DNA from: Onthophagus taurus
Lineage: Eukaryota > Arthropoda > Insecta > Coleoptera > Scarabaeidae
Direction: 5' to 3'
Assembly (NCBI RefSeq): GCF_036711975.1
Contig: NC_091970.1
Location: forward strand, 7,943,501-8,007,500
DNA: 64,000 nucleotides
The notes beneath the pieces were generated by a model. It did not search any database, had not been told where the DNA came from, and worked only from the letters and a program-made list of their open reading frames with translations. Positions within the stretch are counted from its first letter, which is position 1; each line of letters opens with the position of its first letter. This document shows positions 1,117-64,000 of the stretch, one piece after another. Made by a program: the position numbers and the translations under genes.

Positions 1117-4100
1117 TGTAACAACGTAAGCTAATCCATCCCATGTCATCCTAGCCACAGAATCTTTTCTCCGTATCTTCCCAGGTTCTCGAATTTGCTC
1201 AGATGGTAAATCTGTAACATCTGATGGTCCTGGTAAAACATCCGGGCGATCACTTCTTTGTTGCACATCATTTTCAGTCAAAGTATCCCGATTTTGTAAA
1301 TAATCCTCTTTTAATGGTCCATAAGTCCTAGAAGCTAACCGTTTCCTTCGATCCAACCACCGTTGTTGTTGTTCATTTTCATTCTCTTCATCGACCCCAA
1401 AAAAATTTGCAGTCTCCTTTTTAATAAAATTCCTTATAACTTCTTTCCTCGACGTTGACCTGACAATTCTGGGTCTACGCTCGCTTTGGCTATAATTCAC
1501 TCTGGGTTGTGGTTGTTGTTGAGAATATCTTTCATTAACACTCTGTGCTGGCATTGACACAGCCCTTTGAAGTTGCTTTTGTGCCACATTTTGTTGTTGT
1601 GGTTGTTCGTTTTGTTGATTTTTCGTGGGCGTTTTTAATTGTTGCGTTTGAATTGAAGATGTAGTCGTCGCTGTTGTTTGTGGTTGAATTTGTTGTAGTT
1701 CTTGTAATTGTTGCTGTTGAGGAGGTGACGTTCTCCTAAAATAAAATTAAAAAAATCGTTTTCTATTTTCAATCAATCAATCATTGTCTGGATGAAAGAA
1801 AATTAATAGGGGAAGTGAAAATTTGTACGAAAGGGGACACGTTAAAATGGGGCGCAGATTGCATTGACAGATGACGTCGGTTTTATAAATGATCTTCCGG
1901 TTCAATCTTTTATCAAAAAGATTATTAAGTAGGTGAAGAGAAAATTGAAAGTTGAGAGGCTAAATTGAAAAAAAAAGTTTTGATTTCTTTTTTAAGAAGT
2001 CAATTAAATAATTGTTGTTTTTATAAACATTAAAGATGACTAATAACTTTTTAAACACCAAACCTAAGAAAATCTAGGTTAGATTTTTTTGTTACTAATT
2101 ATTTCTTACTTTTCACTTAATTCCATCTCATTTTTGTATTAACCATACATATTTTCATTAATAAATAAATAAATCTTTATTGCACCATCCGAATTGCACT
2201 GAATTTTTAACACAAAAAACGATTAACTAAAAAAAAAATACATTGAGGTTAGATGACCCAATTTGCAACTTTCAAGGTTATGTGTCACCGTGAATTTTAT
2301 TTCTCTTCAAAACGTGGCATAAAAAGAGACGGATTCTTTTTTAATCATAAATTTTACCTGCGTTTAAACCTGTTTTTGCCTCATTGTTAGTTTATTTTCT
2401 TCATTAACATTTCCATCATAAAAAAAGAAATTTTCATTTTAAGAGGATGGTAACACTGTCAATTTTTCGACAAAAAATTTCAATTTAAGTAATATGTAGT
2501 ATACGATTTAATTAGTTTCGTATTAATTAAATATATTTGTTAATGTTTGAAAATAAATGACTCCAAGCAAGGGGGGACTTGCTGTGACGTCATTGGAAGA
2601 ATTGACATTTAAGAAGCTACTTAAGAAGCAATACACAAAAATATATAAAAAAAAATTAAAATATAAAGCGAAATATTAACGGTTATAATTTTATTATTGT
2701 TAGGTTATCCAACTTGACTCGGTTACCATGGCGATTAAGATCCAAATATTACAAGTGTTTATCAAAATTGACGTTGAATTCAGTTGTCATTTTATTATTA
2801 TATTCGTAATCTTCATAAAATAACTTTTAAGGTAAGTCCAAACTTGACGCATTTATCTCAAAAAACCAAAAAGTTCGAACTTTCAACTTTTAATTTTGAC
2901 ATATTTGTCATCTTCATTAAAAAACCTTTAAAATGAGTCCAAACATGACGCATTTATGTTAAAAAACAAAAAAATTTTAATAAAAAAACGTTAACCCCGA
3001 AGTTAGCAACAATGAAGATAGCAATTTAATTATTAAATATTAATACCAACCTTAATTTTTAATTTTTTTTATTGTTTTTATAATAAATTTTAAGACATTT
3101 CATAAAAATTAAGAATTTGTCAAAATGACATTGACATTTCAAACCGGAAGTTGCTTATATCTCGACTAATATTGGAATTAAACGTATCATGTTTGGGCTC
3201 ATTTTAAAGGATTTTCCACGACAATTGCAAATATGTCAAAGTTGACGTTGACATTTCTAACCGGAAGTTGACCGTAACTTCATTAATATTGAAGATAAAT
3301 ATGTCGTGTTTGTACTCATTTTAAAGGATTTTTAATGAAGATTACAAATATGTCAAAATTGAGGTTGACATTTTAAATCTGGTTAGTTATCAGTTATCAT
3401 ATAATAGACAAGTGGACAACTTCATGGTGTTCTTTCATGATGTATTCTTCATTAAAAAAACCTTTAAAATGAGTCCAAACATGACGCATTTATCTCAAAA
3501 AACAAAAAAGTTTGAATAAAAAAACGATAAACCCGAAGTTAGCAACAATGAAGATAGCAATTTAATTATTAAATATTAATACCAACCTTAATTTTTATTT
3601 TTTTTTATTGTTTTTATGATAAATTTTAAGACATTTCATAAAAATTAAGAATTTGTCAAAATGACATTAACATTTCAAACCGGAAGTTGCTTATATCTCG
3701 ACTAATATTGGAATTAAACGTATCATGTTTGGGCTCCTTTTAAAGGATTTTTCACGACGATTACAAATATGTCAAAATTGACGTTGACATTCTTAACCGG
3801 AAGTTGGCCATAACTTCATTAATATTGAAGATAAATGTGTCGTGTTTGTACTCATTTTAAAGGATTTTTAATGAAGATAACAAATATGTCAAAATTGAGA
3901 TTGACATTTTAAATCTAAATCATATAATAGACAAATGGACAACTTCATGGTATTCTTTTATTATGTATTCTTCATTAAACAAAAACTATCATTATGTTGT
4001 ATATTTTTATTGCACTAAAACTAGAACTAGTTCTAGTTTTAATTGTTACTAAGTGTTAAATTGTTGTCTATTTTTACTGAAATAAAACTAACATTAGACC

Positions 4101-15734: not shown

Positions 15735-18244
15735 TTAGATGTTATCAAGGTCTAAAGGTTCCTGTAAAACGTGATTACTACAAAAATTTCTCGCAAAATC
15801 GTAAGTTCCAAAGAAAATATAACCACCTAAAGTTATCCACAAAACTCTAGGAACAAACCCGGCGAATAACCCTGCAACACCTTTTTCTTTATAAACTAAT
15901 TTGAACATATTATTAACAGTTAAACTCTTATCAGCTAGCATTATTCGAGTTTTTACAACATCTAACGGGGTTGTAATCGCAGCGGAAACTCCACCTAATG
16001 AGATAAATAAATAAATAATCCCTGTAAGATTTTTTAAATAATTAATCACCTGCAATCGCGCCACAACTAGCAACTTCAAAACTACTCAACATTTCATTAT
16101 TTTTAAATTTAATTCGATACGTGCGTTTCAAAAACTCCAAAATTGGGAATTGCACGAAAGAAAACGGGACTTCCCGTATAATCGTAGACCCAAACCCGCG
16201 ATACAACCCCTTTAAAAGCCCCTCCGATCTCCAAGCATCCAACGCGATCGCCATAGAAGTCGAATTTTTAGGACAAGTTTGTCGCCGTTGCTTAACAACT
16301 TCCATTGGAACCCTAACCAAGCAAGCGACCTTAAAAAATTAATTATAAAAATTTAGTTCTAAATGTTGGGTTAATTTTTATACAGACAACTTCAGCTAGC
16401 GATGCCCCTGCCATATAAACGATCGGTAAAGCTTGTTGAGGCACTAAGGGGGTCATAAAATATTTGCAACTTTCGTATGTGCAAAAAAATAAGGCAGCTT
16501 GTGGGGCACTACCGATTGCTTGGGGACCAATTCCTTTATAAATTCCGGAAAATCCTCCGGAGTTTCGAAAACCTTGGGAAAAATTCAAGAATCATCGTGT
16601 GGCTTAAAAATCGACGATTTTTTTTTAATCATTGTGAAATTACCCAAAAAACACGTTAAAAATAAAAAGAAAATGCGGAAAAGTGTAGAATATACCGAAA
16701 AATCACATCAAATCACACTCATTAAAAATAATCGAAATACGGGGTACTTCCGGTTTGAAATGTCAACCTTAATTTCGTTATATTTATAATCTTTACAAAA
16801 AATCCTTTAAAATGAGCCCAAACACGATGGGATTATCTCAAAAATTAACATTTCGTTGCCAACTTCACTTTGTTAACTTTAAATTTATCAACTTTTTTGG
16901 TACCTTTCTTATTTTTTGAGATACAATAGTCGAGTTTGAACTCATTTTAAAAGATTTTTCGTAAAAATTAAGAATTTAATAAAATTAAAATTGATATTTA
17001 TAACCGGAAATCGACCATTTAAGGTTATTTTTAAGTTAATCATGCTATATTTGTATTTATTTCAATGAATGTTTGATGAATATTACAAAAAAAAAACATT
17101 CAACATTAAAAATAATCGAAATACGGGGTACTTCCGGTTTGAAATATCAACCTTAATTTTGTTATATTTATAATCTTTACGAAAAATCCTTTAAAATGAG
17201 CCCAAACACGATGGGATTATCTCAAAAATTAACATTTCGTTGCCAACTTCACTTTGTTAACTTTAAATTTATCAACTTTTTTGGTATCTTTCTTATTTTT
17301 TGAGATAAAATAGTCGAGTTTGAACTCATTTTAAAGGATTTTTCCTAAAGATTAAGAATTTATAAAATTTAACTTGATATTTATAACCGGAAGTCGACCA
17401 TTAAAGTTATTTTTAAGTTAATCAATACCAATATAGTATTGGTATTTATTTTAATGAATGTTTGATGAATATTACAAAAAAAACAGTATCTCAGACAATA
17501 GTTTCTCCCAACAATAGTCTTCTCCAAGCAGATTGTAATCTTTTCCACCAGTACCTAGCATTTTGGAAGCAGTAGGTACCTTTTTTGGAGAGCATATCTC
17601 TTCTTTCCATAGTTATTAGTCTTTTCCAATAGCATTTAGCATTCTGGCAGCATTAGATAGCTTTTTGGAAAGCATATCTCTTTTCCAAACAATTAAAGTC
17701 TTTGAAAGCTTTTTATTAAAGTCTTTTTCTGCAGCATCTAGCATTTTAGAAGCAGGAGGTAACTTTTTAAAATAGTATTTCCTCTTTCCAAGCAGTTTTT
17801 AGTCTTTTACTAGCAGTATTTAATCTTCTGACAGCAATAATAGTCTTTTACCAATAGCATTGAGCACTCAGGAACATAGATTTTAGGTTATATTTAGTTT
17901 ATAGATGGAGAACGACATTTTAGTCAATGACGTCACAAAAAGTGACGTCACGTCGAAACATTAAAGTGATTTTTCGGTAAATTTTACACTTTTACGACTT
18001 ACTTGAGTGATTTCCCGTCGATTAAAAAAGAAATTGTCGATTTTTAAGCGATATGATGCTTCTTGAATTAACCAAACCTTGTGCTGATTGCAAACGGGTT
18101 TTTATGGTATCTAAAGGAAAAAGAATCATATCTACGGATAAACCAGCTGCTGCTCCACCCTAAAATTACCCACAATCAATATGATATCAATATCTTAATA
18201 TAACTTACGAAAAGTGAAGAGATATACAAATTCTTCTCACTCAT
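15735..18244 (-). CDS. SLC25A26: Mitochondrial S-adenosylmethionine carrier
   Basis: Five exons in transcript order (18209-18244, 18078-18159, 16388-16572, 16050-16329, 15735-15994) give 280 residues, close to the 274 of human SAMC. Three mitochondrial-carrier repeats carry the signatures PLDTIK, PMEVVK and PLDVVK. Family-specific matches include [20 protein letters not shown] and [14 protein letters not shown]. It exchanges cytosolic SAM for mitochondrial S-adenosylhomocysteine across the inner membrane. Most introns are ordinary, but the intron 16573-18077 is 1.5 kb with a poor GTTTGG donor and an AAG acceptor, and is almost entirely one transposon-like element. The intron 16330-16387 also has an unusual GTCTGT donor and AAG acceptor. 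Confidence 0.94.
16577..18073 (-). mobile_element. TIR element filling the SLC25A26 intron (possible intron-creating insertion)
   Basis: The ends are inverted: GGAAAAATTCAAGAATCATC at 16577 against GGTTAATTCAAGAAGCATC read inward from 18073, with similarity continuing about 20 bp (gcttaaaaatcgac). The identical octamer AAACCTTG flanks it at 16569-16576 and 18074-18081 and looks like an 8-bp target-site duplication. Inside are about two copies of a 385-bp satellite (16735-17480), a short-period minisatellite (17485-17880) and cAMP-response-like TGACGTCA words near 17930-17960. No transposase is visible, so it is non-autonomous. A relative starts at about 61650. Confidence 0.75.
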
Positions 18245-19226
18245 TATCCTGGGATTATATTTAAGTGAGGTTATGTTCATAAAAAATAGCGCATATTTAT
18301 TGAACGCATATGGCGCCATCTGTTGAGGATATTTTGGAATTATTCAGCTAAGAACCGAACCACTAGAATACAGGTTGGATTGGGTTTACATATAAAAGCT
18401 CCAACCACAGAATAACTGTATGGAAAGTGTTTGAATTAATGTTCCCACTGGTTGGGAATTCCTCAAATGCAATTACCTATACCCATCAAATAATGAGGCT
18501 ACATTTGAATATCACGCATCATATAACATGTGAGATTGCATCTGACGAGCTTCCAACCAGTTATAACGTTAGCTGAAATAAGGCTATAATGCCAATTATA
18601 ATCTAATTAATTAATCATACCATTATTACTTTATTATACTTTTACCGAAAAATCACTTTAAAATGACGTTTTCATCTGTCATTCTGATCAAACTTCAACT
18701 TTTAAAATTCGTAGCGGCAAATTTAAAAATATAACACGAATTGGAATCTATACTTTTTAAATAAAAAGATTGATACTGGTAATAATTGTTATTGCTGTCT
18801 CTCATCATTCTAACTATTAAAAATAAAATTGTTAGTTTAATTAAATTATTTCAATATAGACGCTAATGCCATCTTACGGTGGGATTTCGAGTCTCAAAAA
18901 ATTAATTATTTCATATTAAATAAAGTAAATTGTGCTATGGGTTGTTTTAATTTCAATTTTTATTCTTAAATAATACTAATGTATTAATAAAAAGAAATAA
19001 ATTAAGAATAAAAATTAAAAATATTAATAAAAAAAAGTGAGGTTAGTTTTAAAATTTTAAGGTTATGTTAATATGTCATCATCGACGTCTTCTTTAATTT
19101 TCGTTCAAATTTCAACGGAAATAACGCATATTTATCGATGACAAGTTGCAAAAATTACGTAATTATTACCTAAAAGAACAAACGCGTCGAATCCTGCACG
19201 AAAATCTTGCAAAATATAAAATAACA
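18245..19226. other. Divergent intergenic region between SLC25A26 and RFT1
   Basis: No coding exon or RNA gene is recognisable. The region must hold the two divergent promoters. A tggcgccatctg word lies at 18311 and an atgccatctta variant near 18866. Confidence 0.5.
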
Positions 19227-22200
19227 ATGAGTAGAAACGTTTTAAAAAGTAGCCTCCAAAACGCATCGTTTAACATTATTTTTCAGGTAATTAATTAATT
19301 AATTTCCCTTTAATTTATTATGAATAAGGTTTTTTAGATCCTTTTTAGATGTGTTACGTTCGTCTTAAACGCTTTTATAATACGATACGTAGGCCAAGAT
19401 GTTTTGGGGATAATGAACGTTCGATTACTACTTTTGGAGTCTACGATTTTATTTTTATCGCGCGAACCACTTTTAAAAGCTTGCTTAACGGATACTAAAT
19501 CGCATAATTGGGCACAAGTTATTAATCAGATTTGGTTATCGTAAGAGTTAAATTAGAAATAAAATGAAAGTTTGAATCTTTCTTTTTAGGGTTCCTTTAT
19601 CTGGTTTATTAAGTATTTGCTTGGTTTATGTTTGGATTAACGTTTTATCATCAACAGATGATCAATATTTGATGCAGTACCAAATTGGTTGTTATGCGGT
19701 TGCCTTTTCGTGCGTAATTGACCAAATAGCACAACCAGTTCAGTTAGTTGCGCAAAGTTATTGTTTTGTGAAATTAAAGGTTATTTTTGAAACGATTTAT
19801 ATAACGGCGAGAACAATTACTTTTGTTATTCTGGTTATAAATAACCCGGAAAATGCGATACATGCGTTTTCGATAGCTCAAGTTTCGTCGTCTTTGTTAC
19901 TTTGTTTGTTGTATTACGAATTTTTTTATTATTACATTAAGAAATTCAACAATGTTAAAGTCAAAGACGATTTTAAAAGTGATATGGAGAAACGATTGTT
20001 TGGTGATATGCAAGATTTTAAATTTAAATCCATTTTGGATTTTATCCCTGGATTTATGTCGAATAATGTAAGCTTTTTTTATTGTTTTTGTAATTCGCGA
20101 CTACTTTTGTATATACATCTTTGTATTCATGGGACTTCTCTGGAAGTAGTCAAATTGCAAAAAGTAAAGTTATTCATAAGCCTTGAAAACAGATAAATCT
20201 AAACTTGTAAAAATATACAGGGTATTCCATTTAAAGAACGCCATTGGACCGCGTTATGCATCACTTGACTAAGCTACAAATGATTAATGTTGAGAAAAAC
20301 GAGATTTTCGTTTTCATCTCCCTAAAAATATAAGACTTCTCAGAATAGAGAGGCACAAACTATTAAAAATTGTTTGGTGCCTGTCCATTTTTATCACAGA
20401 ACACTGATGACACCTATCACAAGCACAGAGGGCATACAGGGTGTTTCTGTAAATCATGGCATAAATTTAATCACTAAAATTAGGGACAAAATGATGACGA
20501 ATAATCACGTCTGTCGAGTTGGCACTACATCTTGCGATTTGAATAAAAAACTATTGCATTAATTGTCGCTTGATTTGTTGCGTCCTTTTTTATGAATAAT
20601 TTTTGAGGTATTGCACTTTAAAGGCATACTAAACGTACGTTAAATTTTCGCCTACGTCATCAAACGTTACTAAAGATTGGTATGACGTCATATTAAAGCC
20701 ACAATTGACCAATTACAGTTTCAATAGTAGCGTATTAATGACGTACGGCTCAAAGGTGAAAAACCAACATTACCATACTAAAATCATGAGCAAAACTGTT
20801 GTACAACATCAAACGTGACGAGGATCTATCAATTCTGAAAGCATACACCCTTTTATTTTATGGCAGCCGTACGTTTCTACCTTTATATTGTCATCTTCTT
20901 CTAAGGCCCACTTTTGCCACCTCTTAATAAATTTAACCGATAGATAAATTGGCGCTCTTAGCCAATGAGAGCGCTTACAACCATTGTAACCATGGTAATT
21001 ATCTATCGGATAAATTTATCGAGAGGTGGTAAAAGTGAGCCTAATTGATGTATGCTGCACAGCCTTAGATCTACTTCCTGCATCACGCGATTGACGCGAC
21101 AAATTTGTAAACTTTACGACAAATTACAACAGTTTATTGTTATCTCCACTCTTTACCATAGATTCCCACTGTCAAGTTAGCACTACCTCAAAAATGCACT
21201 ACCTCAACATTTCAAATATTGTCAAGAGTTTGATTTTGTACTTTTAAACTGGTTTTTATTTTGTATAGAATTTAAGTCTAACCAGTTTCGGCCCTTGACA
21301 ATCTTCAGAGACTCTACAAATAGATTAACATCTCTCATCTTATCCATTTTACAAACAAGTTTCTTAATATCTCTTTTTGTTTTGTTAAAAAAGACCACAG
21401 ATTATTAGTTACTAATTAACAAAATTAAAGTTTAAAAAGTTGTAAAATGGAATTAAGGACGAAAAAATGTTTAATAAAAAAAATATTAAGACACTTGGGA
21501 AAAATTCAAAAATCATCATGTGGCTTAAAAATCGACGATTCTTTTTAATCAATGTGAAATGACCCATAAAACACATTAAAAATAAAAAGAAAGTGACTAA
21601 CACTAGATTAACTCAGTTATAAAACTTCAATTATATGATAACTAACTTCAGGTTTAAAATGTCAACCTCAATTTTTACATATTTGTAACTTTCATTAAAA
21701 ATGCTTTAAAATGTGTACAAACATGACATATTTATCTCCAATATTAATGAAGTTATGGTCAATTTCCGGTTAATGTCAACGTCAATTTTGACATATTTGT
21801 AATCGTCGTGAAAAATCCTTTAAAATGAGTCCAAACATGATACGTTTAATTCCAATATTACTCGAGATATAAGCAACTTCCGGTTTGAAATGTCAATGTC
21901 ATTCTGACACATTCTTAATTTTTATAAAATGTCTTAATATTTGTCACAAAAATATAATAAAAAAAAATAAAAAATTAAGGTTGGTATTAATATTTTAAAT
22001 TAAATTGCTATCTTCATTGTTGCTAACTTCGGGTTTAATGGTTTTATTCTAACTTTTTTGTTTTTTGAGATAAGTGCGTCTTATTTAGACTCATTTTAAA
22101 GGTTTTTTTAATAAACAATACATCATGAAAGAACACCATGAAGTTGTCCATTTGTCTATTATACGATAACTAACTTCAGGTTTAAAATGTCAACCTCAAT

Positions 22201-24357
22201 TTTGACATATTTGTAATTTTCATTAAAAATGCTTTAAAATGAGTACAAACATGACATATTTAGCTCCAATATTAATGAAGTTATGGTCAACTTCCGGTTA
22301 ATGTCAACGTCAATTTTGCCATATTTGTAATCGTGAAAAATCCTTTAAAATGAGTCCAAACATGATACGTTTAATTCCAATATTTCTCGAGATATAAGCA
22401 GCTTCCGGTTTGAAATGTCAATGTCATTTTGACATATTCTTAATTTTTATAAAATGTCTTAATATTAGTCACAAAAACAAAAATATAATTAAAATTAAGG
22501 TTGGTATTAATACTTAAAAATTAAATTGCTATCTTCATTGCTGTTAACTTCGGGTTTAATGTTTTTTGTTCTAACTTTTTATCTTTGGACTCATTTTAAA
22601 GGTTTTTTAATGAAGTTGACAAATATGTCAAAATTGACGTTTCAAACCGGAAGTAATTAAGTTTCCATTAATATTAAAGTTAAATATGTCGAATTTGAAC
22701 TCATTTTAAAGGATTTTTTATGAAGTTGACAAATATGTCAAAATTAAAACTTGAAAGTTCGAACTTTTTAGTTTTTTGAGATAAATGCGTCAAGTTTGGA
22801 CTCACTTTAATAGTATTTTAGGTATTTCGGTATTTTTTCTAACAATAAGATAAGTTATACCTTTTTATTATCTAAAAACGATAAAATGTCGCTTAGTCAA
22901 GTGATGTATAACGCGGTCGAATTGAACTCTGACCAATTTCTCTTATTTCGGGGGTGTAGATGAAACATTTTTTTCAGGTTAGGTGTTGGAATTGACAATT
23001 AGAATTGTCAATTCAAATTTCTATTATCAAGTGTTACCAACTGCTACATATCTATTTCCCTACATTGTCAAAATTTATTTTATTTTTGTTAAAAAAAAGG
23101 ATAAAAACGCGAATTACAAACAATAGCATAAAAAGCACGTTCAAAAAGCACTCATTCATTAAAAAACTTGTGTTTCAACTTGAATTCGTGCATTTCAAGC
23201 GTGTCTTACAAAACTTTTTTTGTTTTTTAATATACTATTAAGCGCTAACTACATGATGATTTTAGGATAAACCTTTGAATAAAAAGTTGACAATTTTAAC
23301 GATAAGTTTTGCGAAACAAAGTGTGATAAAACAAGTTTTAACGGAGGGTGAAAAATATGTTATGACGATTTCACCCGTTTTAACGTTTAGCCAACAGTCG
23401 ATGTACGATATTGTAAATAATTTAGGTAGCTTAGCTGCCAGGTAAGTTTTTTTTTAAACAAATTAAGTTGATATTAACCAAACAAAAATTTAATTTAGAT
23501 TTATTTTCCGCCCAATAGAAGATAGTGCTTATTTTTACTTCACCCAAATGATTAAAAGAGATTCGACACTAACACAACAAGATCAGGTAATTAAATTTTA
23601 ATATCATTATTTTTAATAAATCTTTTCGTTTACAGAAATCTGTATCACAAGCAACCATAGTTTTAAGCCACTTATGTAAAGTTGTCACATCAATTGGATT
23701 AATTGCGGTGTTTTTTGGGAACTCTTACAGTTACACTTTATTATTTCTTTATGGAGGCACAAGTTTAACAGAAACGAACCTTCCAACAGTTCTCTTAAAG
23801 TGTCATTGCATTGCTGTTCTTCTTCTTGCTGTAAATGGAGTTACTGAATGTTATGTATTCGCTACGATGAATAACAAGCAATTGGATCGATATAATTACC
23901 TTATGGTGTTATTCTCAATCTCGTTTTTGTTGCTTTCTTACATCTTAACGATGTTTTTGGGCCCTGTTGGGTTTATATTTGCGAATTGCTTAAATATGGC
24001 GGCTCGAATAATGCATAGGTAAACAATACGCTTATTAAACAATGCTGTTTAATGATTCAATTCTTTTTTAGCGTTTATTACATATCCCACAAATACAAAG
24101 ATACAAATTACAAACCTTTAGACGGTTTAATTCCAGGAAAATTCTTTATTTTTTCGTTGATCTTATCATTATTTGTAACAAAATGGTCAGAGCACTTTTA
24201 TTTAGAAAATGTCACCATGAAATCAACCTTAATTCACATATTAATAGGAGCCATATGCTTTTTAATAACAATTTCAATTTGGGTTTACGAAAATAAGCAC
24301 TTGGCAACAATCGGATTTAACAAATACAAAAGGAGGTTATCCTTTAAAAGTGATTAA
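19227..24357 (+). CDS. RFT1: RFT1 homologue (dolichol-linked oligosaccharide translocation protein)
   Basis: Seven exons (19227-19286, 19338-19540, 19590-20067, 23266-23441, 23499-23586, 23636-24018, 24072-24357), with all phases consistent, give 557 residues (human about 541). Family matches include the N-terminal [18 protein letters not shown] and [25 protein letters not shown], and the central [18 protein letters not shown]. The rest are hydrophobic segments typical of this multi-pass (MOP-like) ER protein. RFT1 is needed for N-glycan precursor assembly at the ER membrane. Its exact flippase activity is debated. The fourth exon follows a 3.2-kb intron full of repeats, while the other introns are about 50 bp. 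The gene converges on LAMTOR5, with stops 28 bp apart. Confidence 0.95.
20905..21041. mobile_element. MITE, about 137 bp, Harbinger-like
   Basis: A nearly palindromic element. The terminal GGCCCACTTTTGCCACCTC pairs with the inverted complement of the right end (GAGGTGGTAAAAGTGAGCC). Inner segments (ataaatttaaccgatagata and its partner) and a central ggcgctcttagccaat / gagagcgct core extend the hairpin. It is flanked on both sides by TAA, consistent with a 3-bp TWA duplication as used by PIF/Harbinger elements. Family assignment is inference. Confidence 0.75.
21484..22830. repeat. Element end plus inverted copies of the 2.8-4.0 kb satellite
   Basis: 21484-21600 matches one end of the 16577-18073 element (ttgggaaaaattcaa, then atcatcatgtggcttaaaaa). 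From about 21605 the sequence changes to the satellite seen inverted at 2800-3950, with two units of about 525 bp (landmark ttcgggtttaat at about 22029 and 22551). No gene is visible. Confidence 0.7.
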
Positions 24358-24706: not shown

Positions 24707-24945
24707 GATTATTAACTCAAAAAACTACTTTAAACTTCTTCTTCTTCTTCACAATGATAAGGCTTGGCAATGGGATTTGGATACTTGTCCCTATTATCTC
24801 CCAGTCACTGCGTACTTTAAACTTAATAATTTACTCAATAAAGAGAAACGTCAAAAAATGACAGCTAAAAAAACGGGATCTATTTTATCCACTTCGTCTA
24901 CACGAACAATAACAATAATTTTTATTCAAAAATTAAATAATAAAC

Positions 24946-25457
24946 ATGGAAATATGTCGATTATGTTTCAATTCAACATCAAATTCATATACACCTTCAA
25001 ATTTAAACGACGGAAGCGCCCACCGTAAGCAATTACAAATAATTCTCCCAGAAATAGTGAGGTTATGTCTCCTAAATAATACCCTTATTAATATTAATTT
25101 TTTAAGGATTTAAAGGCGATTTTATCGCCGATGTTGTGTTCAAACTGCTCAACAACCTTCGAAGACGTTTTTATTCTAAGAAAAACTTGGCTACAATGCG
25201 AGAAAAAGTTAAAAAACTACTTGGAAAACACACATAACCTCAACAATCCTTGTTTATTTGATGTAATTAACGAAGATCATAAATTGGTGATTTTAAACGC
25301 TTCCATTGATTTAAACGAAGAAGAGGAAATAAAAAATGAGCTTGAATTAGATGATTTTAATTTGGATGAGGATATAAAAATCGAAGAAAATCAAATTTGT
25401 GATATTTGCACGAAAAATGAGTGTGATTGTCAATATTCTTGTTTGATAAGCCCCTAA
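24946..25457 (+). CDS. ZAD-only mini-gene, copy 1
   Basis: Exons 24946-25056 and 25107-25457 encode 153 residues. The zinc-finger-associated domain (ZAD) is present with both metal-binding pairs, CRLC at residues 4-7 and CSNC near the start of exon 2. An acidic linker follows. The frame stops where the first C2H2 finger of the parent would begin (CLIS-P-stop instead of CLIC). ZAD domains dimerise, so a ZAD-only product could compete with the full protein (inference). This is the most divergent copy (Phe, Gln and Asp substitutions). Confidence 0.7.
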
Positions 25458-25616
25458 AAGTTTAAATTATTAACTTAAAAAACTACTTTAAACTTAATAA
25501 TTTACTTATTAAAGAGAAACGTCAAAAAATGACAGCTAAAAAAACGGGATCTATTTTACCCACTTCATCCTAATGAACAATAACAATAATTTTTATTCAA
25601 AAATTAAATAATTAAC

Positions 25617-26128
25617 ATGGAAATATGTCGATTATGTTTCAATTCAACATCAAATTCATATACACCTTTAAATTTAACCGACGGAAGCGCCCAACGTAAG
25701 CAATTACAAATAATTCTCCCAGAAATAGTGAGGTTATGTCTCCTAAATAATGCCCTTATTAATATTAATTTTTTAAGGATTTAAAGGCGATTTTATCGCC
25801 GGTGTTGTGTTCAAATTGCTCAACAACCCTCGAAGACGTTTTTATTCTAAGAAAAACTTGGCTAGAATGCGAGAAAAAGCTAAAAAATTACTTGGAAAAC
25901 ACACATAACCTCAACAATCCTTGTTTATTTGATGTAATTAACGAAGATCATAAATTGGGGATTTTAAACGCTTCCATTAATTTAAACGAAGAAGAGGAAA
26001 TAAAAAATGAGCTTGAATTAGATGATTTTAATTTGAATGAGGATATAAAAATCGAAGAGAATCAAATTTGTGATATTTGCACGAAAAATGAGTGTGATTG
26101 TCAATATTCTTGTTTGATAAGCCCCTAA
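25617..26128 (+). CDS. ZAD-only mini-gene, copy 2
   Basis: Exons 25617-25727 and 25778-26128 give 153 residues. The start, both CxxC pairs, the GTGAGG donor, the intron and the terminal stop are all as in copy 1. Exon 2 encodes the same 108-residue C-terminal segment as copy 3, so divergence is very low. It has its own promoter copy in the repeat unit. Whether it is transcribed cannot be told from the sequence. Confidence 0.68.
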
Positions 26129-26287
26129 AAGTTTAAATTATTAACTTAAAAAACTACTTTAAACTTAATAATTTACTTATTAAAGAGAAACGTCAAAAAA
26201 TGACAGCTAAAAAAACGGGATCTATTTTACCCACTTCATCCTAATGAACAATAACAATAATTTTTATTCAAAAATTAAATAATTAAC

Positions 26288-26799
26288 ATGGAAATATGTC
26301 GATTATGTTTCAATTCAACATCAAATTCATATACACCTTTAAATTTAACCGACGGAAGCGCCCACCGTAAGCAATTACAAATAATTCTCCCAGAAATAGT
26401 GAGGTTATGTCTCCTAAATAATGCCCTTATTAATATTAATTTTTTAAGGATTTAAAGGCGATTTTATCGCCGGTGTTGTGTTCAAATTGCTCAACAACCC
26501 TCGAAGACGTTTTTATTCTAAGAAAAACTTGGTTAGAATGCGAGAAAAAGCTAAAAAATTACTTGGAAAACACACATAACCTCAACAATCCTTGTTTATT
26601 TGATGTAATTAACGAAGATCATAAATTGGGGATTTTAAACGCTTCCATTAATTTAAACGAAGAAGAGGAAATAAAAAATGAGCTTGAATTAGATGATTTT
26701 AATTTGAATGAGGATATAAAAATCGAAGAGAATCAAATTTGTGATATTTGCACAAAAAATGAGTGTGATTGTCAATATTCTTGTTTGATAAGCCCCTAA
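26288..26799 (+). CDS. ZAD-only mini-gene, copy 3
   Basis: Exons 26288-26398 and 26449-26799 give 153 residues. The exon-2 protein segment is identical to that of copy 2, with only silent differences seen, as expected after recent duplication or gene conversion. ZAD cysteines and splice sites are intact, and the stop is the shared one. Confidence 0.68.
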
Positions 26800-26956
26800 A
26801 AGTTTAAATTATTAACTTAAAAACTACTTTAAACTTAATAATTTACTTATTAAAGAGAAACGTCAAAAAATGACAGTTAAAAAAAGGGATCTATTTTATC
26901 CACTTTGTCTACACGAACAATAACAATAATTTTTATTTAAAAATTAAATGATTAAC

Positions 26957-27468
26957 ATGGAAATATGTCGATTATGTTTCAATTCAACATCAAATTCATA
27001 TACACCTTTAAATTTAACCGACGGAAGCGCCCACCGTAAGCAATTACAAATAATTCTCCCAGAAATAGTGAGGTTATGTCTCCTAAATAATGCCCTTATT
27101 AATATTAATTTTTTAAGGATTTAAAGGCGATTTTATCGCCGGTGTTGTGTTCAAATTGCTCAACAATCCTCGAAGACGTTTTTATTCTAAGAAAAACTTG
27201 GTTAGAATGCGAGAAAAAGCTAAAAAATTACTTGGAAAACACACATAACCTCAACAATCCTTGTTTATTTGATGTAATTAACGAAGATCATAAATTGGGG
27301 ATTTTAAACGCTTCCATTAATTTAAACGAAGAAGAGGAAATAAAAAATGAGCTTGAATTAGATGATTTTAATTTGAATGAGGATATAAAAATCGAAGAGA
27401 ATCAAATTAGTGATATTTGCACGAAAAATGAGTGTGATTGTCAATATTCTTGTTTGATAAGCCCCTAA
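26957..27468 (+). CDS. ZAD-only mini-gene, copy 4
   Basis: Exons 26957-27067 and 27118-27468. ZAD cysteines are intact. A Cys in the linker after the ZAD (ICDIC in the others) is Ser here (ISDIC), and a Thr is Ile near the second CxxC. The promoter stretch differs from copies 2-3 (tgacagttaaaaaaaggg type), grouping copies 4-6. Confidence 0.66.
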
Positions 27469-27626
27469 AAGTTTAAATTATTAACTTAGAAAACTACTTT
27501 AAACTTAATAATTTACTTATTAAAGAGAAACGTCAAAAAATGACAGTTAAAAAAAGGGATCTATTTTATCCACTTCGACTACAGGAACAATAACAATCAT
27601 TTTTATTTAAAAATTAAATGATTAAC

Positions 27627-28138
27627 ATGGAAATATGTCGATTATGTTTCAATTCAACATCAAATTCATATACACCTTTAAATTTAACCGACGGAAGCGC
27701 CCACCGTAAGCAATTACAAATAATTCTCCCAGAAATAGTGAGGTTATGTCACCTAAATAATGCCCTTATTAATATTAATTTTTTAAGGATTTAAAGGCGA
27801 TTTTATCGCCGGTGTTGTGTTCAAATTGCTCAACAACCCTCGAAGACGTTTTTATTCTAAGAAAAACTTGGCTAGAATGCGAGAAAAAGCTAAAAAACTA
27901 CTTGGAAAACACACATAACCTCAACAATCCTTGTTTATTTGATGTAATTAAGGAAGATAGTAAATTGGGGATTTCAAACGCTCCCATTAATTTAAACGAA
28001 GAAGAGGAAATAAAAAATGAGCTTGAATTAGATGATTTTAATTTGGATGAGGATATAAAAATCGAAAAAAATGAAATTTGTGATATTTGCACGAAAAATG
28101 AGTGTGATTGTCAATATTCTTGTTTGATAAGCCCCTAA
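27627..28138 (+). CDS. ZAD-only mini-gene, copy 5
   Basis: Exons 27627-27737 and 27788-28138. Several amino-acid changes lie in the linker (KEDSKLGISNAP, EKNEIC). It shares the Ala-Pro variant with the full-length copy 6, suggesting exchange between neighbours. The shared stop is retained. Confidence 0.66.
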
Positions 28139-28296
28139 AAGTTTAAATTATTAACTTAAAAAACTACTTTAAACTTAATAATTTATTTATTAAAGAGAAA
28201 CGTCAAAAAATGACAGTTAAAAAAAGGGATCTATTTTATCCACTTCGTCTACACGAATAATAACAATAATTTTTATTCAAAAATTAAATAATAAAC

Positions 28297-29972
28297 ATGG
28301 AAATATGTCGATTATGTTTCAATTCAACATCAAATTCATACACACCTTTAAATTTAAACGACGGAAGCGCCCACCGTAAGCAATTACAAATAATTCTCCC
28401 AGAAATAGTGAGGTTATGTCTCCTAAATAATGCCCTTATTAATATTAATTTTTTAAGGATTTAAAGGCGATTTTATCGCCGGTGTTGTGTTCAAATTGCT
28501 CAACAACCCTCGAAGACGTTTTTATTCTAAGAAAAACTTGGCTAGAATGCGAGAAAAAGCTAAAAAATTACTTGAAAAACACACATAACCTCAACAATCC
28601 TTGTTTATTTGATGTAATTAACGAAGATCATAAATTGGGGATTTTAAACGCTCCCATTAATTTAAACGAAGAAGAGGAAATAAAAAATGAGCTTGAATTA
28701 GATGATTTTAATTTGAATGAGGATATAAAAATCGAAGAGAATCAAATTTGTGATATTTGCACGAAAAATGAGTGTGATTGTCAATATTCTTGTTTGATAT
28801 GCTCCAAAAAGTTTAAAACGTCGCTTAAATTACAACGACACAGCGTAACACACAACTCTAATAGACCACGGCCTTATTCATGTGATATTTGCCAAAAATG
28901 TTTTTATGTAAAATCCTCTTTAATTAATCATCAAGCAACTCATTCTGAGTCACGAAAATTCTCATGTGATCAATGTGAAGGATCTCAATTTGCTTGTAAA
29001 AAATATTTAAGTGACCACATAAGACGAGTGCATATAAAAAGGGAAGAAAAGTTATTCATTGGGGAATTCCGCTGCGATGTTTGTTTAAAAGTTTTTAGTA
29101 CTTTATTAAAAATGAAACGGCATAAAGCAACATTGCATAAAACGAGGTCAAGGAAGCACATTTGTGAAGATTGTGGCCAAAGCTTTTATACAAAATCAAC
29201 GCTAAATAATCATAAAGCAACGCATGTAATATCAAAAGAATTTTCTTGCGAAAAATGCGGATTGTGTTTTGCATCGAAAAAGTATTTAATGGATCATTCA
29301 AGACGGTTACATGAGACTTTAAAAAAAGTACAATCTGAAGTTGGCGTTTTTGAATGCGACATGTGTAATAAAAAATTTACACAAAAACGCTACCTCACTC
29401 AACATATATCAAACATACACATGGGAATAAAAAAAAAACGACCCCCAAAAAATTTAAAATGCGAATATTGTGGGAGAATTTTTACAAGCGATAACTTATT
29501 AACCCTACATTTACGCACTCACACCGGTGAGCGTCCCTACAAATGCGACGAGTGCGAAAAAAGTTTTGCTCAAGCAAGTTCGTTAAGAACACACAAACAA
29601 GCGATACACAGCAACGAAAAACCTTACGCTTGCGAGTATTGCGGTAAAAAATTCTCAACGAAGGGAATGTTATTAAAACATATTCAAAGTGTTCATATCG
29701 CCGATTCGATCCCAAAAAATCATAAATGCACCTTTTGTGGGAAAGCGTTTCGAACGCAAAGCCAAATGCTATCTCACATGAAATGGCACACAAACGATCG
29801 GCAATTTAGTTGCGACTTATGCGAAAAAAGTTTCGTTAATAACGGCGGTTTAAGAAAACATCGAAAAATTCATTTCGACGAAAAAGAACATAAATGCGAA
29901 TTTTGTGGGAAAGGATTTCATCAAAAATTTAATTTAAAAATACATATGAAAGTACATATAAGAATTGAGTAA
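28297..29972 (+). CDS. ZAD plus C2H2 zinc-finger transcription factor (full-length copy 6)
   Basis: Exons 28297-28407 and 28458-29972 encode 541 residues. The order is an N-terminal ZAD (CRLC at 4-7, CSNC about 46-49), an acidic linker to about residue 140, then 13 C2H2 fingers to the C-terminus. The first begins YSCLICSKKF and the last ends HQKFNLKIHMKVH. One TGERPYKC linker (HTGERPYKCDEC) is present, and most other linkers are non-canonical. ZAD-C2H2 proteins are a large, lineage-expanded insect family of DNA-binding regulators and chromatin organisers that dimerise through the ZAD. The target is unknown. This is the only copy in the array with the finger exon intact. Confidence 0.9.
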
Positions 29973-29979
29973 ATAAAAT

Positions 29980-32435
29980 ATATATTTAAATTATTTTTTT
30001 TTGTTTTAAACGGTTTTATTTTAGACATTATCTATATTTTAATTCGGAGGAGTTTTTTCAAATTGAAGCGCCAGAAAGAGGGTCAGTTTTAACCAAAAAT
30101 TACACTAGGAAAATTCGAGATGTTGCACGTCTCTCAGTCTAGGTCTTATGTTAGTGATAGTGCCAGTTTTAGTTCAATAAAAATATACAACATAGTGCGG
30201 AAAAGTAACTAACATTAGATTAACTTTAGTTATAAAACTTCTATTATATGATAACTAATCTCAATTTCAAATGTCAACCTCAATTTTTACTTATTTGTAA
30301 TCTTCATTAAAAATCCTTTAAAATGAGTACAAACACGACATATTTATCTTCAATATTAATGAAGTTATGGTCAACTTCGATTCGTGGTTTTCTATTATTT
30401 CGGGGGGATACAATTTAATTTCTTTCTGTCAAATTGTAAAGTTGATGACAGTTGGTAACAATAACAGGGAATTTTGTTATATTATGTTTTGAAATCAATT
30501 GGTGACATTATGACGTTTAAACTTCAGTTATTTAAAAAGAAAACCCAATTTTTGGTTTTATTTAATTATTTCTGTAATAATTAGTATAAACATCTTAACC
30601 TCAATTAACTAATGTCTAACAATGTTACTAGAAATTTAAAAAATTATTAAGAGACTAGGCAATACCAACTTAAATCCTGACAAGTATAGATAAAGAGCCA
30701 ACAAATAATTTTTTAAAAAAATTTGTAACTATCTTTAAATGTATTAAAACTGTTTATATAAATTATTATTATTATTATTAAAGATTTTTAATTTGTTCTT
30801 AGTTATATTTAATTTCAATTTTCGTACAAATGTCAAACAAAAAGGAAAATAAAAAAAGGCTTGTTTTTTTAGGCTTTCGATGCATAACGACTGAATACAT
30901 AAAGCTAAACCTGAATTTTTCTACTTCTAGGTCTAGTGTTAGTTCTAGTTTTAGTGCAATAAAAATATACAACATAGTGATATCTAACAACATCATGTTT
31001 GGACTCATTTTAATGTTTTTTTTATAAAGAATACATCATAAAAGAACACCATGAAGTTGTCCATTTGTTTATTATATGATAACTAACTTCAGATTTAGAT
31101 TATAAACCTAAATTTTGACATATTTGTAATCTTCATTAAAAATCCTTTAAAATGAGTACAAACATGACATATTTATCAATATTAATGAAGTTATGGTCAA
31201 CTTTCGGTTACAAATGTCAACGTCAATTTTGACATATTTGTAATCGTGAAAAATTCTTTAAAATGAACCCAAATATGATACTTTAATTCCAATATTACTC
31301 GAGATATAAGCAACTTCTGATTTGAAATGTCAATGTCATTTCGACATATTCATAATATCTTATGCTAATTAGCGCTACCTATCACTGCTACTAGAACTAA
31401 CACTACACCTAGACCTAGAAACATTCCGATTTAGTCCCCTAAATTCTGTTATTGTTATTTAACCCTAAATTCTTGTACATTTTATTGATCTAAAAAAAAT
31501 TTTTTTTCTTTATTTAATCCACTTACCTTGCTTATAATTTCATCCATTTACCCATGTTGAATTAAATACAACGTTTAAATCCAATTAATTAAGTGTTTTT
31601 CATTAAAAAAACTTAAATTTAATTTTGACAAGCACCTGCAATATTTGGATCTTAATCACCATGGTAACCGAGTCAAGTTGGATAACCTTAAAATAATAAA
31701 ATTTTATTCCGATTTTTTTATCAATTCTAACCTAATTTTTATTGATTTGAAAACAATTCGTAAAGAGATTATCTCGCATTCATAACAAATTCGTTAATTG
31801 TAATTAATTTAAATCGAATTTAAATCTAAATAAGAGAAATAAATTTTTTGATTTAATCCACTTACCTTGTTTATAATTCCCTAGATAAACCAATTTTGAG
31901 TTAAATACAGCCTTTTAAACCAATTAAATAAGACTTTTTTCTTAAAAAAAAAAACAAATTTAATTTTGACAAGCACCTGCAATATTTGGATCTTAATCAC
32001 CATGGTAACCGAGTCAAGTTGGATAACCTAAAAATAATAAAATTTTAACCGTTAATATTTCGCTTTATATTTTAATATTTTTGTTAATTTATTTTATATT
32101 TTTCTTTTTTTAATATTTTTATATTTAATATTTTTGTATATTACTTCTTAAGTAAAATACATTGTATAAATAAAAACATAGAAATGTCAATTCTTCCAAT
32201 GACGTCAGCAAGGCCTTTGCGGGGGGATACGTTCATAAATTCATAACCTATGGAGTTGGATTACCTTATTAGTTTATTTATTACAAAATTTCGTTACTTT
32301 CATTTAAGATGTTTTAAGAATTATAATAATAAGTATATAGTGTAGAAGAATTTAAATAGATGGCGTAATAAATTTATATAATTAATTAATGGTAATAATA
32401 ATAATGTAAATATTAAGATTATTTAAAAAAAATCT
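29980..32435. repeat. Repeat-rich intergenic region
   Basis: It contains further copies of the satellite seen at 2.8-4.0 kb (30210-30390 and 30980-31350) and a family bounded by ctaggtctagtgttagttcta-like words (30130-30200, 30900-30985, 31385-31430). Two direct copies of a block with atttggatcttaatcaccat (about 31635-31690 and 31970-32035) recur inverted at 2700-2760. A tccaatgacgtcagc segment near 32200 matches 2584 inverted. No gene is seen. Confidence 0.6.
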
Positions 32436-44630: not shown

Positions 44631-44854
44631 TATTCGGTTAAAAAAATCAATTCCGTATGTATATTACCAGCTGTGTCAAATGTGTCGATTTGTGTTTTAT
44701 GTTATTTAAACTTTTCGACCTCGACGTTTATTTCTATTCCACTGACTTTGAATTGCAAAGGACTTTCTGAGAGCCAGCATAAAATAATCATGTGATAACG
44801 GTTCAGATAAGTTATAAAATAATAACTCAAAAGGATTTTTTCCAATTTAATACA

Positions 44855-45200
44855 ATGTCAGTATCGGATCCCCTTATAAAAGATCTTAAAGGTAATTTTA
44901 GATATCTACAAAAAAAAAGTGATTATTAACTAGCTGATTATAAATAAATACGAAAAGATTATTTTTAAATTTTGAGGTTATGTTATTTTTTTTTTTTATT
45001 ATCTTAATAATGTTGTTTATATTTATTAGTTATGTATAAAACCCTATATGATCAACCTAAATCGTCGTTTTCACTTAATTTCTAATTATTTTTAACTTAT
45101 TTCACCTAAAAAAAGTATTTAAATTTATTTTAAATTTGAGGTTATGTTTACATTTTAGGTTGTATTCTAAATTTTTTCGAAGAAATCAAAGAACTTAAGA
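44855..45200 (+). pseudogene. Duplicate first exon and truncated second exon of the RUN-PDZ-PTB gene
   Basis: An intact first exon (44855-44891, ATG plus 34 nt, GTAATT donor) is followed by an acceptor and a truncated exon 2 (45159 to about 45195). Read together they end after 27 codons. The exon could also act as an alternative first exon spliced to 46672. Which happens cannot be seen from the sequence. Confidence 0.65.
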
Positions 45201-45320
45201 ATTAACTCTCCCAGGGGCGGCTGCAACAATCTCAGCATCCGAATTAAACTCGTTTTTATAAACTTCTTTCGCTTTCCCCAATAAAGTTGTTAAATCGGGA
45301 ATATTTGCCATTATTCGGTT
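45200..45320 (-). pseudogene. GALK exon-1 fragment, copy 2
   Basis: It matches 44519-44640 with few differences, including the GALK start region and part of the GHMP signature, but has no downstream exons. It ends at its left side directly against truncated exon 2 of the adjacent gene, marking the duplication breakpoint. Confidence 0.85.
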
Positions 45321-46155: not shown

Positions 46156-46368
46156 AAAAATCAATTCCGTATGATTATTACAAGCTGTGTCAAAAGTCTC
46201 GTTTTGTGTTTTATGTTATTTAAACTTTTCGACCTCGACGATTATTTCTATTCCACTGACTTTGAATTGCAAAGGATTTTCTGAAAGCCAGCATAAAATA
46301 ATCATGTGATAACGGTTCAGATAAGTTTTAAAATAATAACTCAAAAGATTTTTTTTCCATTTAATACA

Positions 46369-60200: not shown

Positions 60201-61639
60201 CCCACTGAACAGTATGCTACAAAAATTAATATTTTTGAGGTTATATCCTTATTGTTGATTTAATCAAAAAATGTTGTTAACAAAAATTGTTTAGAATTAC
60301 TTCAGGAACAGTGTTTGTTAATACAATTTTTTGCTAACTTGAAATTTTAATTTCCCTCTGAATAGTATTCTATCAAAATTAATTATCTCAATAATTATTG
60401 TTTCTATCAAAAAATGTTTTAAATAAAATTTGTTTCAATTTCCATTATGAATCAATTATCTGAATAAAAAAATTTTACATCTCTATTAATTAAGCATCTA
60501 AGTATAATTATGTATAAACATGGAAAAATTATTATTTTGAGGTTATCTCCTTAATTATTGATTAAATCAAAAAATTTTGTTAACAATGTTTGTTAAGAAT
60601 TGCTTCAGGAACAGTCTTTGTTAAAACAATTTTTTTTTAACTTGAAATTTTAATTTCCCACTGAACAGTATGCTACAAAAATTAATATTTTTGAGGTTAT
60701 ATCCTTATTGTTGATTTAATCAAAAAATGTTGTTAACAAATTTTGTTTAGAATTACTTCAGGAACAGTGTTTGTTAATACAATTTTTTGCTAACTTGAAA
60801 TTTTAATTTCCCTCTGAATAGTATTCTATCAAAATTAATTATCTCAATAATTATTGTTTTTATCAAAAAATGTTTTAAATAAAATTTGTTTCAATTTCGA
60901 TTTTGAATCAATTATCTTAATAAAAAAATTTAACATTTCTATTAATTAAGCATCCAAGTGTAATTACACGTTTTTATACATAATTATGTATAAAAACGGA
61001 AAAATTATTATTTTGAGGTTATCTCCTTAATTATTGATTAAATCAAAAAATTTTGTTAACAATATTTTTTCAGAATTACACCAGGAACAGTGTTTGTTAA
61101 AACAATTTTTTTCTAACTTGAAATTTTAATTTCCCACTGAACAGTATGCTGTTCTTTTAATCACAACGAGTGGAGGGGGGAAATCGTATCGTTTTGTTAC
61201 AAAAGTTCCGTGCCCTAATTATAAGGTAGTCGTGGATAAATTTATTTATAAGGCGAAAATTAACTTACTTGCAAAGAATTTGTGCAAACATCTAAATCGT
61301 GATGCATTAATGTAAAAGCATCGATTGCAGTTTGGCGTTGATCCCAAGGGCTTACATCTTCTTGTGGGGGTGGGGGAACTTCCCCAACAGCTCCCGGATC
61401 AACGCTAATATCCCCATAACCCACGTAAAAAAATTCGCATTTACACCGAGATACAATTCTTTGTAATTGAATTGGGGAGTTATCGGCTAAACTGCTTGCT
61501 CCAACCGTATCACTAACGACGGCCCCAACTGAAACTCCACTCCCAACCATATTTGGAACCTCCGAAATCATCGCCATTTCGTTTAAACTTGATGAATCTT
61601 TTTCTTGGATGTTATCGACCGTTAACCACATGATGTTTT
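51242..61639 (-). CDS. BLTP2: Bridge-like lipid transfer protein 2 (hobbit/KIAA0100), C-terminal part; gene continues past the right edge
   Basis: Two exons are visible: 61269-61639 and the terminal 51242-52567, joined in phase 0, about 565 residues in all. The junction reads DVCTNSLQ then YTMLLDIVNNLLLYVEPHRK, as in KIAA0100. Other family blocks are [71 protein letters not shown] and RVSYKGNKEKNLEDI. The methionine at 52561 is internal. BLTP2 is a very long RBG/VPS13-like tube protein (over 2,000 residues) bridging ER and plasma membrane. Drosophila hobbit is needed for regulated secretion and body size. The intron 52568-61268 (8.7 kb) is nearly all one repeat element. Confidence 0.93.
53400..61150. 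repeat. 456-bp dimeric satellite array, about 17 units
   Basis: The word ggttatctcc recurs with the following spacing. From 53701 the positions are 54157, 54613, 55069, 55525, 55981, 56437, 56893, 57353, 57809, 58265, 58721, 59177, 59633, 60089, 60545 and 61021. The spacing is 456 bp except for one 460 and one 476. Each unit has two related parts (about 155 and 300 bp), each starting with gaggttat(c/a)tcctta. Variants such as aaacgg versus acatgg are shared in blocks, indicating duplication of multi-unit segments. Confidence 0.93.
60969..60998. repeat. Perfect 30-bp palindrome at the end of the satellite array
   Basis: The 30 bases are their own reverse complement (half-site cgtttttatacataa). 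It arises from a 20-bp insertion that is an inverted copy of the adjacent repeat sequence and occurs only in the last unit, the one 476 bp long. Confidence 0.9.
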
Positions 61640-61649
61640 CTAATAAATG

Positions 61650-64000
61650 AATTCAAGAATCATCATGTCGCTTAATAATCGCAGTTACAAATAAAAATAA
61701 AGTGCGGAAAAGTTTAAAACTTACCGAAAAATCATATATTTAGTTAAAACGCATATTTTCGGGTGAAATACGGTTGTTTCTTAGGTTTTCGACGCACAAC
61801 TTCTATAAATCCCTCAATCCTTAAATTTATTGGTTCCTAAATGCTAGATACAGTTGGCCAAAGACTAGTTATTGCTACCAAAAGATTAAATACTGCTGGT
61901 AAAAGACTAAAAACTGTTTTGAAAGAGGAAATACTATTTCAAAAAGTTAGTAGCTAACTTTTTGAAATAGCTTTTAAAATGCTAGATACCGATAGAAAAA
62001 GATCACAACTTACTTGGAAAAGACTAGATACTGTTTTCAAAATAATACCTATCGCTTCCAGAACGCTAAACACTCCTATTAAAGGTTTCGACCTACTTGG
62101 CCAGGAGAAATACTGCGTCCAAGACTACTTATTGCTTTCAAAGACCTTAATAATTGTTTGGAAAAGAGATATGCTCTCCAAAAAGCTACCTACTGTTTCC
62201 AAAATGCTACATACTGGTGGAAAAGATTACAATCTGCTTGGAGAAGATTATATAGTGCTAACAAACAATTACAAATTGATTGGAAAGACAAGATACTGTT
62301 TCCAAAAGACTATTAACTACATTCAGAATGCTAAATTTTGTTGGAAAGACTATTTAATGCTGCCAAAACACTATTATGTGCTTGGAACTACTCTTCTGTT
62401 GAGTGATATCTTTCTGTGTCCCCTCCTCCTGGTCGACTTCCGGTTATAAATATAAACTTTCATTTTATTAAATTCTTAATCTTTACGAAAAATTCTTTAA
62501 AATGAGTCCAAACTCGACTATTTTATCTCAAAAAATAACAAAGATACAACGATAAATTTAAAGTTAACAAAGTGAAGTTGGCAACGAAATGTTAAAAATG
62601 TTCATTTTTGAGATAATCCCATCGTGTTTGGCATCATTCTAAAGGATTTTTCGCAAAGATTATGAATATAACAAAATTGATGTTGATATTTCAAACCGGA
62701 AGTACCCCGTATTTCGATTATTTTTAATGTTGAATGTTTTTTTTTGTAATATTCATTAAAATAAATACAAATATAGCATGATTAACTTAAAAATAACCTT
62801 TAATGGTCGACTTCCGGTTATAAATATTAACTTTAATTTTATTAAATTCTTAATCTTTACGAAAAATCCTTTAAAATGAGTCCAAACTCGACTATTTTAT
62901 CTCAAAAAATAACAAAGATACAACAAAAAGTTGATAAATTTAAAGTTAACAAAGTGAAGTTGGCAATGAAATGTTAAAAATGTTCATTTTTGAGATAATC
63001 CCATCGTGTTTGGGCTCATTTTAAAGGATTTTTCGCAAAGATTATGAATATAACAAAATTGAAGTTGATATTTCAAACCGGAAGTACCCCGTATTTCGAT
63101 TATTTTTAATGTTGAATGTTTTTTTTGTAATATTCATTAAAATAAATACAAATATAGTATGATTAACTTAAAAATAACCTTTAATGGTCGACTTCCGGTT
63201 ATAAATATTAACTTTAATTTTTTTAAATTTTTAATCTTTATGAAAAATCCTTTAAAATGAGTTCAAACTCGACTATTTTATCTCAAAAAATAAGAAAGAT
63301 ACAACAAAAAGTTGATAAATTTAAAGTTAATAAAGTGAAGTTGGCAACGAAATGTTAAAAATGTTCATTTTTGAGATAATCCCATCGTGTTTGGTCTCAC
63401 TTTAAAGGATTTTTCGTAAAGATTATGAATATAACAAAATTGAAGCTGATATTTAAAACCGGAAGTACCCCGTATTTCGATTATTTTTAAAGTTGAATGT
63501 TTTTTTTTTAATATTCATCAAACATTTATTAAAATAAATGCAAATGTGGCATGATTAATTAAAAATAACCTTTAATGGTCGACTTCCGGTTATAAATATC
63601 AACTTTAATTTTATTAAATTCTTAATGTTGACGAAAAATCATTTAAAATGAGTCCAAACTCGACTATTTTACCTCAAAAAATAACAAAGTTATCACAAAA
63701 AAATGATAAATTTAAAGTCAACAAAGTGAAGTTGGCAATGAAATGTTAAAAATGTTCATTTTTGAGATAATCCCATCGTGTTTGGCCTCATTTTAAAGGA
63801 TTTTTCGCAAAGATTATGAATATAACAAAATTGAAGTTGATATTTCAAACCGGAAGTACCCCGTATTTCGATTATTTTTAATGTTGAATGTTTTTTTTTG
63901 TAATATTCATTAAACAGTCATTAAAATAAATACAAATATAGCATGATTCACTTAAAAATAACCTTTAATGGTCGACTTCCGGTTATAAATATCAATTTTA
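61650..64000. mobile_element. Relative of the SLC25A26-intron element, next to a BLTP2 splice acceptor; continues past the window
   Basis: It begins with aattcaagaatcatcatgtc and follows the internal order of the 16577-18073 element read from its right end: terminus, ccgaaaaatca segment (about 61720), short-period minisatellite (61858-62400), then the satellite from 62431. The terminus lies about 11 bp from the acceptor of BLTP2 exon 61269-61639. The other end is outside the window. Confidence 0.68.
62431..64000. repeat. Tandem satellite, about 380-392-bp period
   Basis: The word ggtcgacttccggttataaat starts at about 62431, 62805, 63187, 63577 and 63969, giving four full units and the start of a fifth at the window edge. 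It is the same family as the two inverted units at 16735-17480. Confidence 0.85.

Follow-up and report, generated by a model that had tools for sequence, protein, structure and literature searches.

How does a gene whose other introns are approximately 50 nt long come to carry one long intron that is filled from end to end by a single repeat element? This question was raised by a carrier gene on the minus strand of a 64-kb stretch of DNA (the whole stretch analyzed, referred to below as the window). Three introns of this gene measure 49, 58, and 55 nt, compared with 1,505 nt for intron 2 (18077-16573), which interrupts the gene in phase 1, within the Gly of SAQ/G (here and below, the slash marks a junction). 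An earlier, sequence-only reading had proposed an introner-like origin for this intron. We consider that intron 2 was probably made by the insertion of a DNA transposon, and we include in this judgment a variant in which the element itself carries the acceptor. Intron birth of this kind is a known mechanism (introner-like intron gain) that is rare in animals.

Joining of the five exons of the gene yields an uninterrupted reading frame, 280 codons long, that ends in ...LDNI and a stop. Indeed, the coding line had been claimed to be restored upon removal of the element and one octamer flanking it, and this open frame confirmed the claim. Exon 1 (18209..18244) is followed by the donor GTAAGT, exon 2 (18078..18159, 82 nt) ends in CAAG, and the frame continues through exon 3 (16388..16572), exon 4 (16050..16329), and exon 5 with the stop codon (15735..15994). 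Three nested in-frame ATGs (18319, 18280, and 18244) have the GTAAGT donor in common and tie for the top donor score in the searched region. Placement of the start is uncertain among these candidates; we took the shortest one, 18244, because the protein length then resembles that of the human protein. We assume that the gene is SLC25A26 (SAM carrier), a name based on sequence motifs. Three Mito_carr stretches were found in the protein (queried from exon 2 on), a trait of the carrier superfamily only. An NCBIfam search with the protein named no family, and a PDB search returned 11 sequences, all of them other carriers. Scans for relatives of the protein yielded 8 pattern stretches in IMG/VR and 27 in GTDB, with no relatives in either. 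Passages of two papers bearing on the SLC25A26 exon structure (PMC6468709 and PMC4704781) contained no usable position data. RFT1 is the head-to-head neighbor of the carrier gene (18244-19227), and approximately 1 kb separates the start codons of the two genes.

Intron 2 consists of an element plus one octamer and of no other sequence. The octamer AAACCTTG was located at 16569..16576 and again at 18074..18081, and thus at both intron boundaries, in agreement with the sequence-only reading. Both copies read CAAG/GTTT in the sense of the gene. As had also been proposed, they supply the two splice sites: the copy at 18074..18081 is the source of the donor, and the copy at 16569..16576 is the source of the acceptor AG (16574-16573). 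Everything between them belongs to one non-coding element with inverted ends, measuring exactly 1,497 bp (16577..18073). Its left terminal inverted repeat (16577..16711, plus strand) has the core AATTCAAGAATCATC from 16582, and its right terminal inverted repeat (17961..18073, minus strand) has the core AATTCAAGAAGCATC, read downward from 18069. The inverted ends are approximately 110 to 135 bp long, with 87% agreement between the blocks 16582-16626 and 18025-18069 and 86% in a second block pair (16676-16711 and 17961-17996). Read in the gene sense, the left inverted end contributes TTTTTCC to the 3′ splice site, and most of the pyrimidine tract that precedes the acceptor AG, TTTTTCCC, comes from this end of the element. 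Inside the element lie two tandem 384-bp units with 93% matches (16720..17483, plus strand), followed in the right half by diverged minisatellite-like repeats (17523..17872, plus strand). No open frame of at least 90 codons lies wholly within the element, which therefore looks non-autonomous. Its three sense frames contain 43, 34, and 30 stops, and retention of intron 2 would end translation 18 codons beyond the junction.

We then asked how exceptional the direct repeat is at this place. An exact 8-bp direct repeat no more than 13 bp from both inverted-repeat cores occurred for 0.36% of 200,000 random position pairs. Donor and acceptor match in register over 8 nt at intron 2, compared with 0 to 5 nt (2, 1, 1, 2, 3, 3, 2, 3, 0, 0, 3, and 5 nt) in all 12 control introns, which come from RFT1, galactokinase, Hobbit, and the carrier gene on models drawn by eye from the DNA sequence, with human proteins as a guide. 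Intron 4 of the carrier gene has an in-register junction match of 5 nt. The target duplication at the junctions of intron 2, seen as the exact AAACCTTG pair, is 8 or 4 bp long. CTTG stands outside the left terminus both at the carrier gene and at a copy within an RFT1 intron at 21498; the latter reads ACACTTG/GGAAAAATTC, and the stretch common to it and the carrier-gene copy is CTTGGGAAAAATTC. Because the RFT1 copy also has CTTG at its outer edge, the duplication is perhaps 4 bp (AAAC) rather than 8 bp, and some of the octamer letters may be the element's own. As to the source superfamily, hAT elements make 8-bp duplications of the form nTnnnnAn, a criterion that is applicable only to a duplication of 8 bp and not of 4 bp. 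On this criterion hAT was rejected at the one site considered, where position 2 of AAACCTTG / CAAGGTTT is A and position 7 is T.

Both splice sites of intron 2 had been described as poor, and of the two the donor was confirmed as weak. AAG/GTTTGG was outscored by 12 of the 13 control donors, and 43% of the 5,874 GT sites in the window equal or exceed it. In a list of the 12 highest-scoring GT sites over exon 2 and the first 158 nt of intron 2, it stood 9th. The top GT site among those listed, CAAGTAAGT at 18002, lies inside the element and has a far higher score; use of this site would leave an in-frame stop in the mRNA. The intron 3 donor of the carrier gene (GTCTGT) is weaker than that of intron 2. 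An AAG acceptor is also present in 2 of the 12 control introns, and we thus rejected it as a sign of novelty. The folding of the RNA was predicted for intron 2 plus 20 nt of flanking exon at either end, giving 91 pairs between the first and the last 180 nt of the intron; 10 sequences shuffled in two-base blocks gave 0 to 38. The predicted stem begins where intron base 2 pairs with the final base of the intron, a position from which the stem would draw donor and acceptor together. The outermost predicted pairs include the splice sites and might hide them.

In a further step, the terminal core ATTCAAGAATCATCATGTGGCTTAA was searched in the window with up to 3 mismatches, which gave 4 matches, whereas 100 shuffles averaged 0. 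The four cores represent three copies: two are the ends of the carrier-gene element, and single cores lie at 21504 and 61651. The element belongs to a real repeat family. The second copy (61650..64000, minus strand) comprises a terminus, the minisatellite, and 4.1 units of 381 bp and extends beyond the window end, and its internal layout is the same as that of the carrier-gene element. Next to it lies an exon of Hobbit/BLTP2 (61269..61639, minus strand; Pfam Hobbit, 1.8e-16) with its acceptor AG at 61641-61640. The Pfam match runs from residue 6 of the open frame, which is the first whole codon past the acceptor TTATTAG, and the donor of the exon is CAA/GTAAGT. A PDB search with this exon gave no match at E values up to 0.1. 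The gap from the core to the acceptor AG is 8 nt at the Hobbit exon versus 7 nt at the carrier gene. By the order of its internal parts, the Hobbit copy turns the opposite arm of the element toward the acceptor, and it carries AATAAATG where the carrier-gene and RFT1 copies have the CTTG-bearing edge.

The third copy (21498..21747, plus strand) aligned to the first 272 bp of the element at 73%. It lies inside an RFT1 intron (20068-23265, approximately 3.2 kb), and its distance to either splice site exceeds 1 kb. Core-like repeats continue past the aligned stretch. A search for a second duplication within 21401-23600 found the flanking octamer once only, at the copy itself. Thus, one copy is flush with splice sites on both sides, the Hobbit copy is flush on its one visible side, and the RFT1 copy is not flush. 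The family accounts for two candidate introns within 64 kb, lying approximately 45 kb apart. The element termini had no matches in IMG/VR or in GTDB genomes.

The window contains further repeats. Those at 2800-3919, 21647-22736, and 30240-31360 are related to the 384-bp core of the element and adjoin different ends (by eye, a common end near 2704 and, inverted, near 31640-31690), an arrangement that looks like an exchange of cores from one family to another. A 456-bp satellite unit is repeated 17 times with 97% matches at 53383-61150, in a Hobbit intron between two coding exons. Tandem units of approximately 670 bp occupy 24813-28817, and five of them hold a 119-codon frame that is almost the same as the beginning of a C2H2 zinc-finger gene at 28449-29972. 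The first coding part of that gene looks as though it had been multiplied; a Pfam scan of one such frame gave no match. Galactokinase has a duplication of its first coding exon, along with flanking DNA, at 44448-46706. The exon copy at 44663-44448 matches the galactokinase signature, and that at 45326-45198 is a shortened copy that falls under the curated cut-off.

What is directly seen at this locus is the anatomy of the element, the open gene, an intron with no sequence beyond the element and one octamer, and another copy of the family adjoining a splice site. The proposed history of intron 2 is as follows. A non-autonomous DNA transposon with inverted ends would have entered the coding sequence CAAGGTTT of the SLC25A26-like gene and duplicated its target, which before insertion would have been part of the uninterrupted exon CAAGGTTTTC. 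Because each target copy contains AG/GT, the upstream copy could give the donor, becoming the 5′ splice site CAAG/GTTTGG, and the downstream copy the acceptor, becoming the 3′ splice site TTTTTCCCAAG/G, with a pyrimidine tract drawn from the element's end. Splicing out of the element and one target copy would regain the original message, and pairing of the inverted ends would help the weak donor to work. We infer three points: the target belonged to an exon before the insertion, the intron is spliced in vivo, and pairing of the ends aids the donor.

An alternative is that the element entered an old intron and that later deletions removed the remaining intron up to the splice sites, the octamer match being in part AG/GT consensus plus chance. 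AG/GT matches are present in the carrier gene (the 5 nt in register at intron 4), and one study describes direct repeats close to the splice sites of 213 of 213 introns (excerpt of PMC11782384), which calls for caution with any lone case. However, such a history requires both flanks to have been lost so precisely that the element ended up flush, with an exact 8-bp repeat. Moreover, the nuclear spliceosomal repeats under length 8 described in the same excerpt (PMC11782384) were 75 to 88% similar and none was 100% similar, and the control introns here match over 0 to 5 nt only. Since intron 2 leaves no room for an older intron, insertion into an exon is the best reading; an older invaded intron would have left its own ends, and the other introns here are approximately 50 nt long, which again favors exon insertion. 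We therefore regard the old-intron history as improbable. A recent insertion that is improperly spliced, and would thus represent a damaged or segregating allele of the sequenced individual, appears to us very improbable. The weak donor, the stronger GT sites close by, and the identity of the two octamer copies are consistent with it, but the remainder of the carrier gene is open, and the same element lies at splice junctions of two genes, so that one disabled allele is a hard explanation.

Insertion into an exon also has a variant: the 3′ splice site would come with the element, whose left terminus would then end in CTTG (in the sense of the gene, ...TTTTTCCCAAG), the duplication would be AAAC only, and the downstream CTTG match would be a coincidence or a target preference. 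The stretch CTTGGGAAAAATTC common to the RFT1 copy and the carrier-gene copy points in this direction, as do Symbiodinium introners with 4-bp duplications that bring their own 3′ site (excerpt of PMC9860276). We nevertheless find this variant unlikely: the matching inverted sequence is absent at the right end, and the Hobbit copy has AATAAATG instead. A 4-base coincidence is required under this variant and under the 8-bp reading alike. Taken as a whole, the introner-like origin proposed by the sequence-only reading stood in part. It is favored by the flush ends, the AG/GT-bearing duplication, the lack of leftover intron, the open gene, and the second copy at a splice site; the third copy away from splice sites, the weak donor, and the ordinary AAG acceptor speak against it.

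A broader proposal, which we make tentatively, is that the element family as such is an introner. Its terminal 40 bp would be a ready-made 3′ splice-site region, repeated insertions into exons would have yielded introns in essential genes (SLC25A26 and Hobbit), and the inverted ends would pair in the pre-mRNA, uniting weak splice sites. This proposal concerns a satellite-cored DNA transposon of 1.5 to 2.5 kb with inverted ends in a probable insect. Introners are reportedly the subject of a study by Huff et al. from 2016. The origins of animal introns are poorly documented, and a survey of 3,325 genomes detected introners in 175 of them and, among animals, in two groups only; family medians were 30 to 654 nt, and some introners, e.g., those of Florenciella, draw both splice sites from the insertion site (excerpt of PMC9860276). 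No insect introner derived from a DNA transposon was found in the titles and abstract openings of the papers listed on intron gain or introners in insects, beetles, or arthropods, a coverage outside which most subscription journals lie. If the proposed origin is true, an intron born from a TIR transposon in a probable insect, together with a candidate from the same family at a distance of 45 kb, would open intron birth in this species to tests that need no more than simple comparisons of genomes and RNA.

Several known systems can be compared with this element. Foldback-like elements (FB and Galileo) have long inverted ends, a tandem-repeat core, and no transposase frame. The element described here resembles them in its inverted ends, tandem core, and missing transposase frame, a likeness by description only. 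With introners as portrayed in the excerpt of PMC9860276, it has in common the TIRs, the target duplication, splice sites taken from the duplicated target, and an unchanged mRNA length, but their family medians of 30 to 654 nt differ from the 1.5 kb seen here. Furthermore, introners are many-copy intron makers, whereas here one case is flush, one is one-sided, and one is not flush. The introner elements of Amoebophrya have inverted repeats at their ends that form a hairpin uniting the exon boundaries (excerpt of PMC7789003). They are similar in their inverted repeats at intron ends and direct repeats over the junctions; in contrast to our element, their inverted repeats are of 8 to 20 nt and their direct repeats of 3 to 5 nt, and they were defined among introns with non-canonical splice sites (same excerpt). 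In Drosophila sechellia, GM26034 gained one intron from the transposon Doc1053 (excerpt of PMC3296678). Although Doc1053 is a retrotransposon and five amino acids were added in that case, whereas the present element is a DNA-type TIR element and would leave the message unchanged, both are lone insect intron gains via transposon insertion with target duplication.
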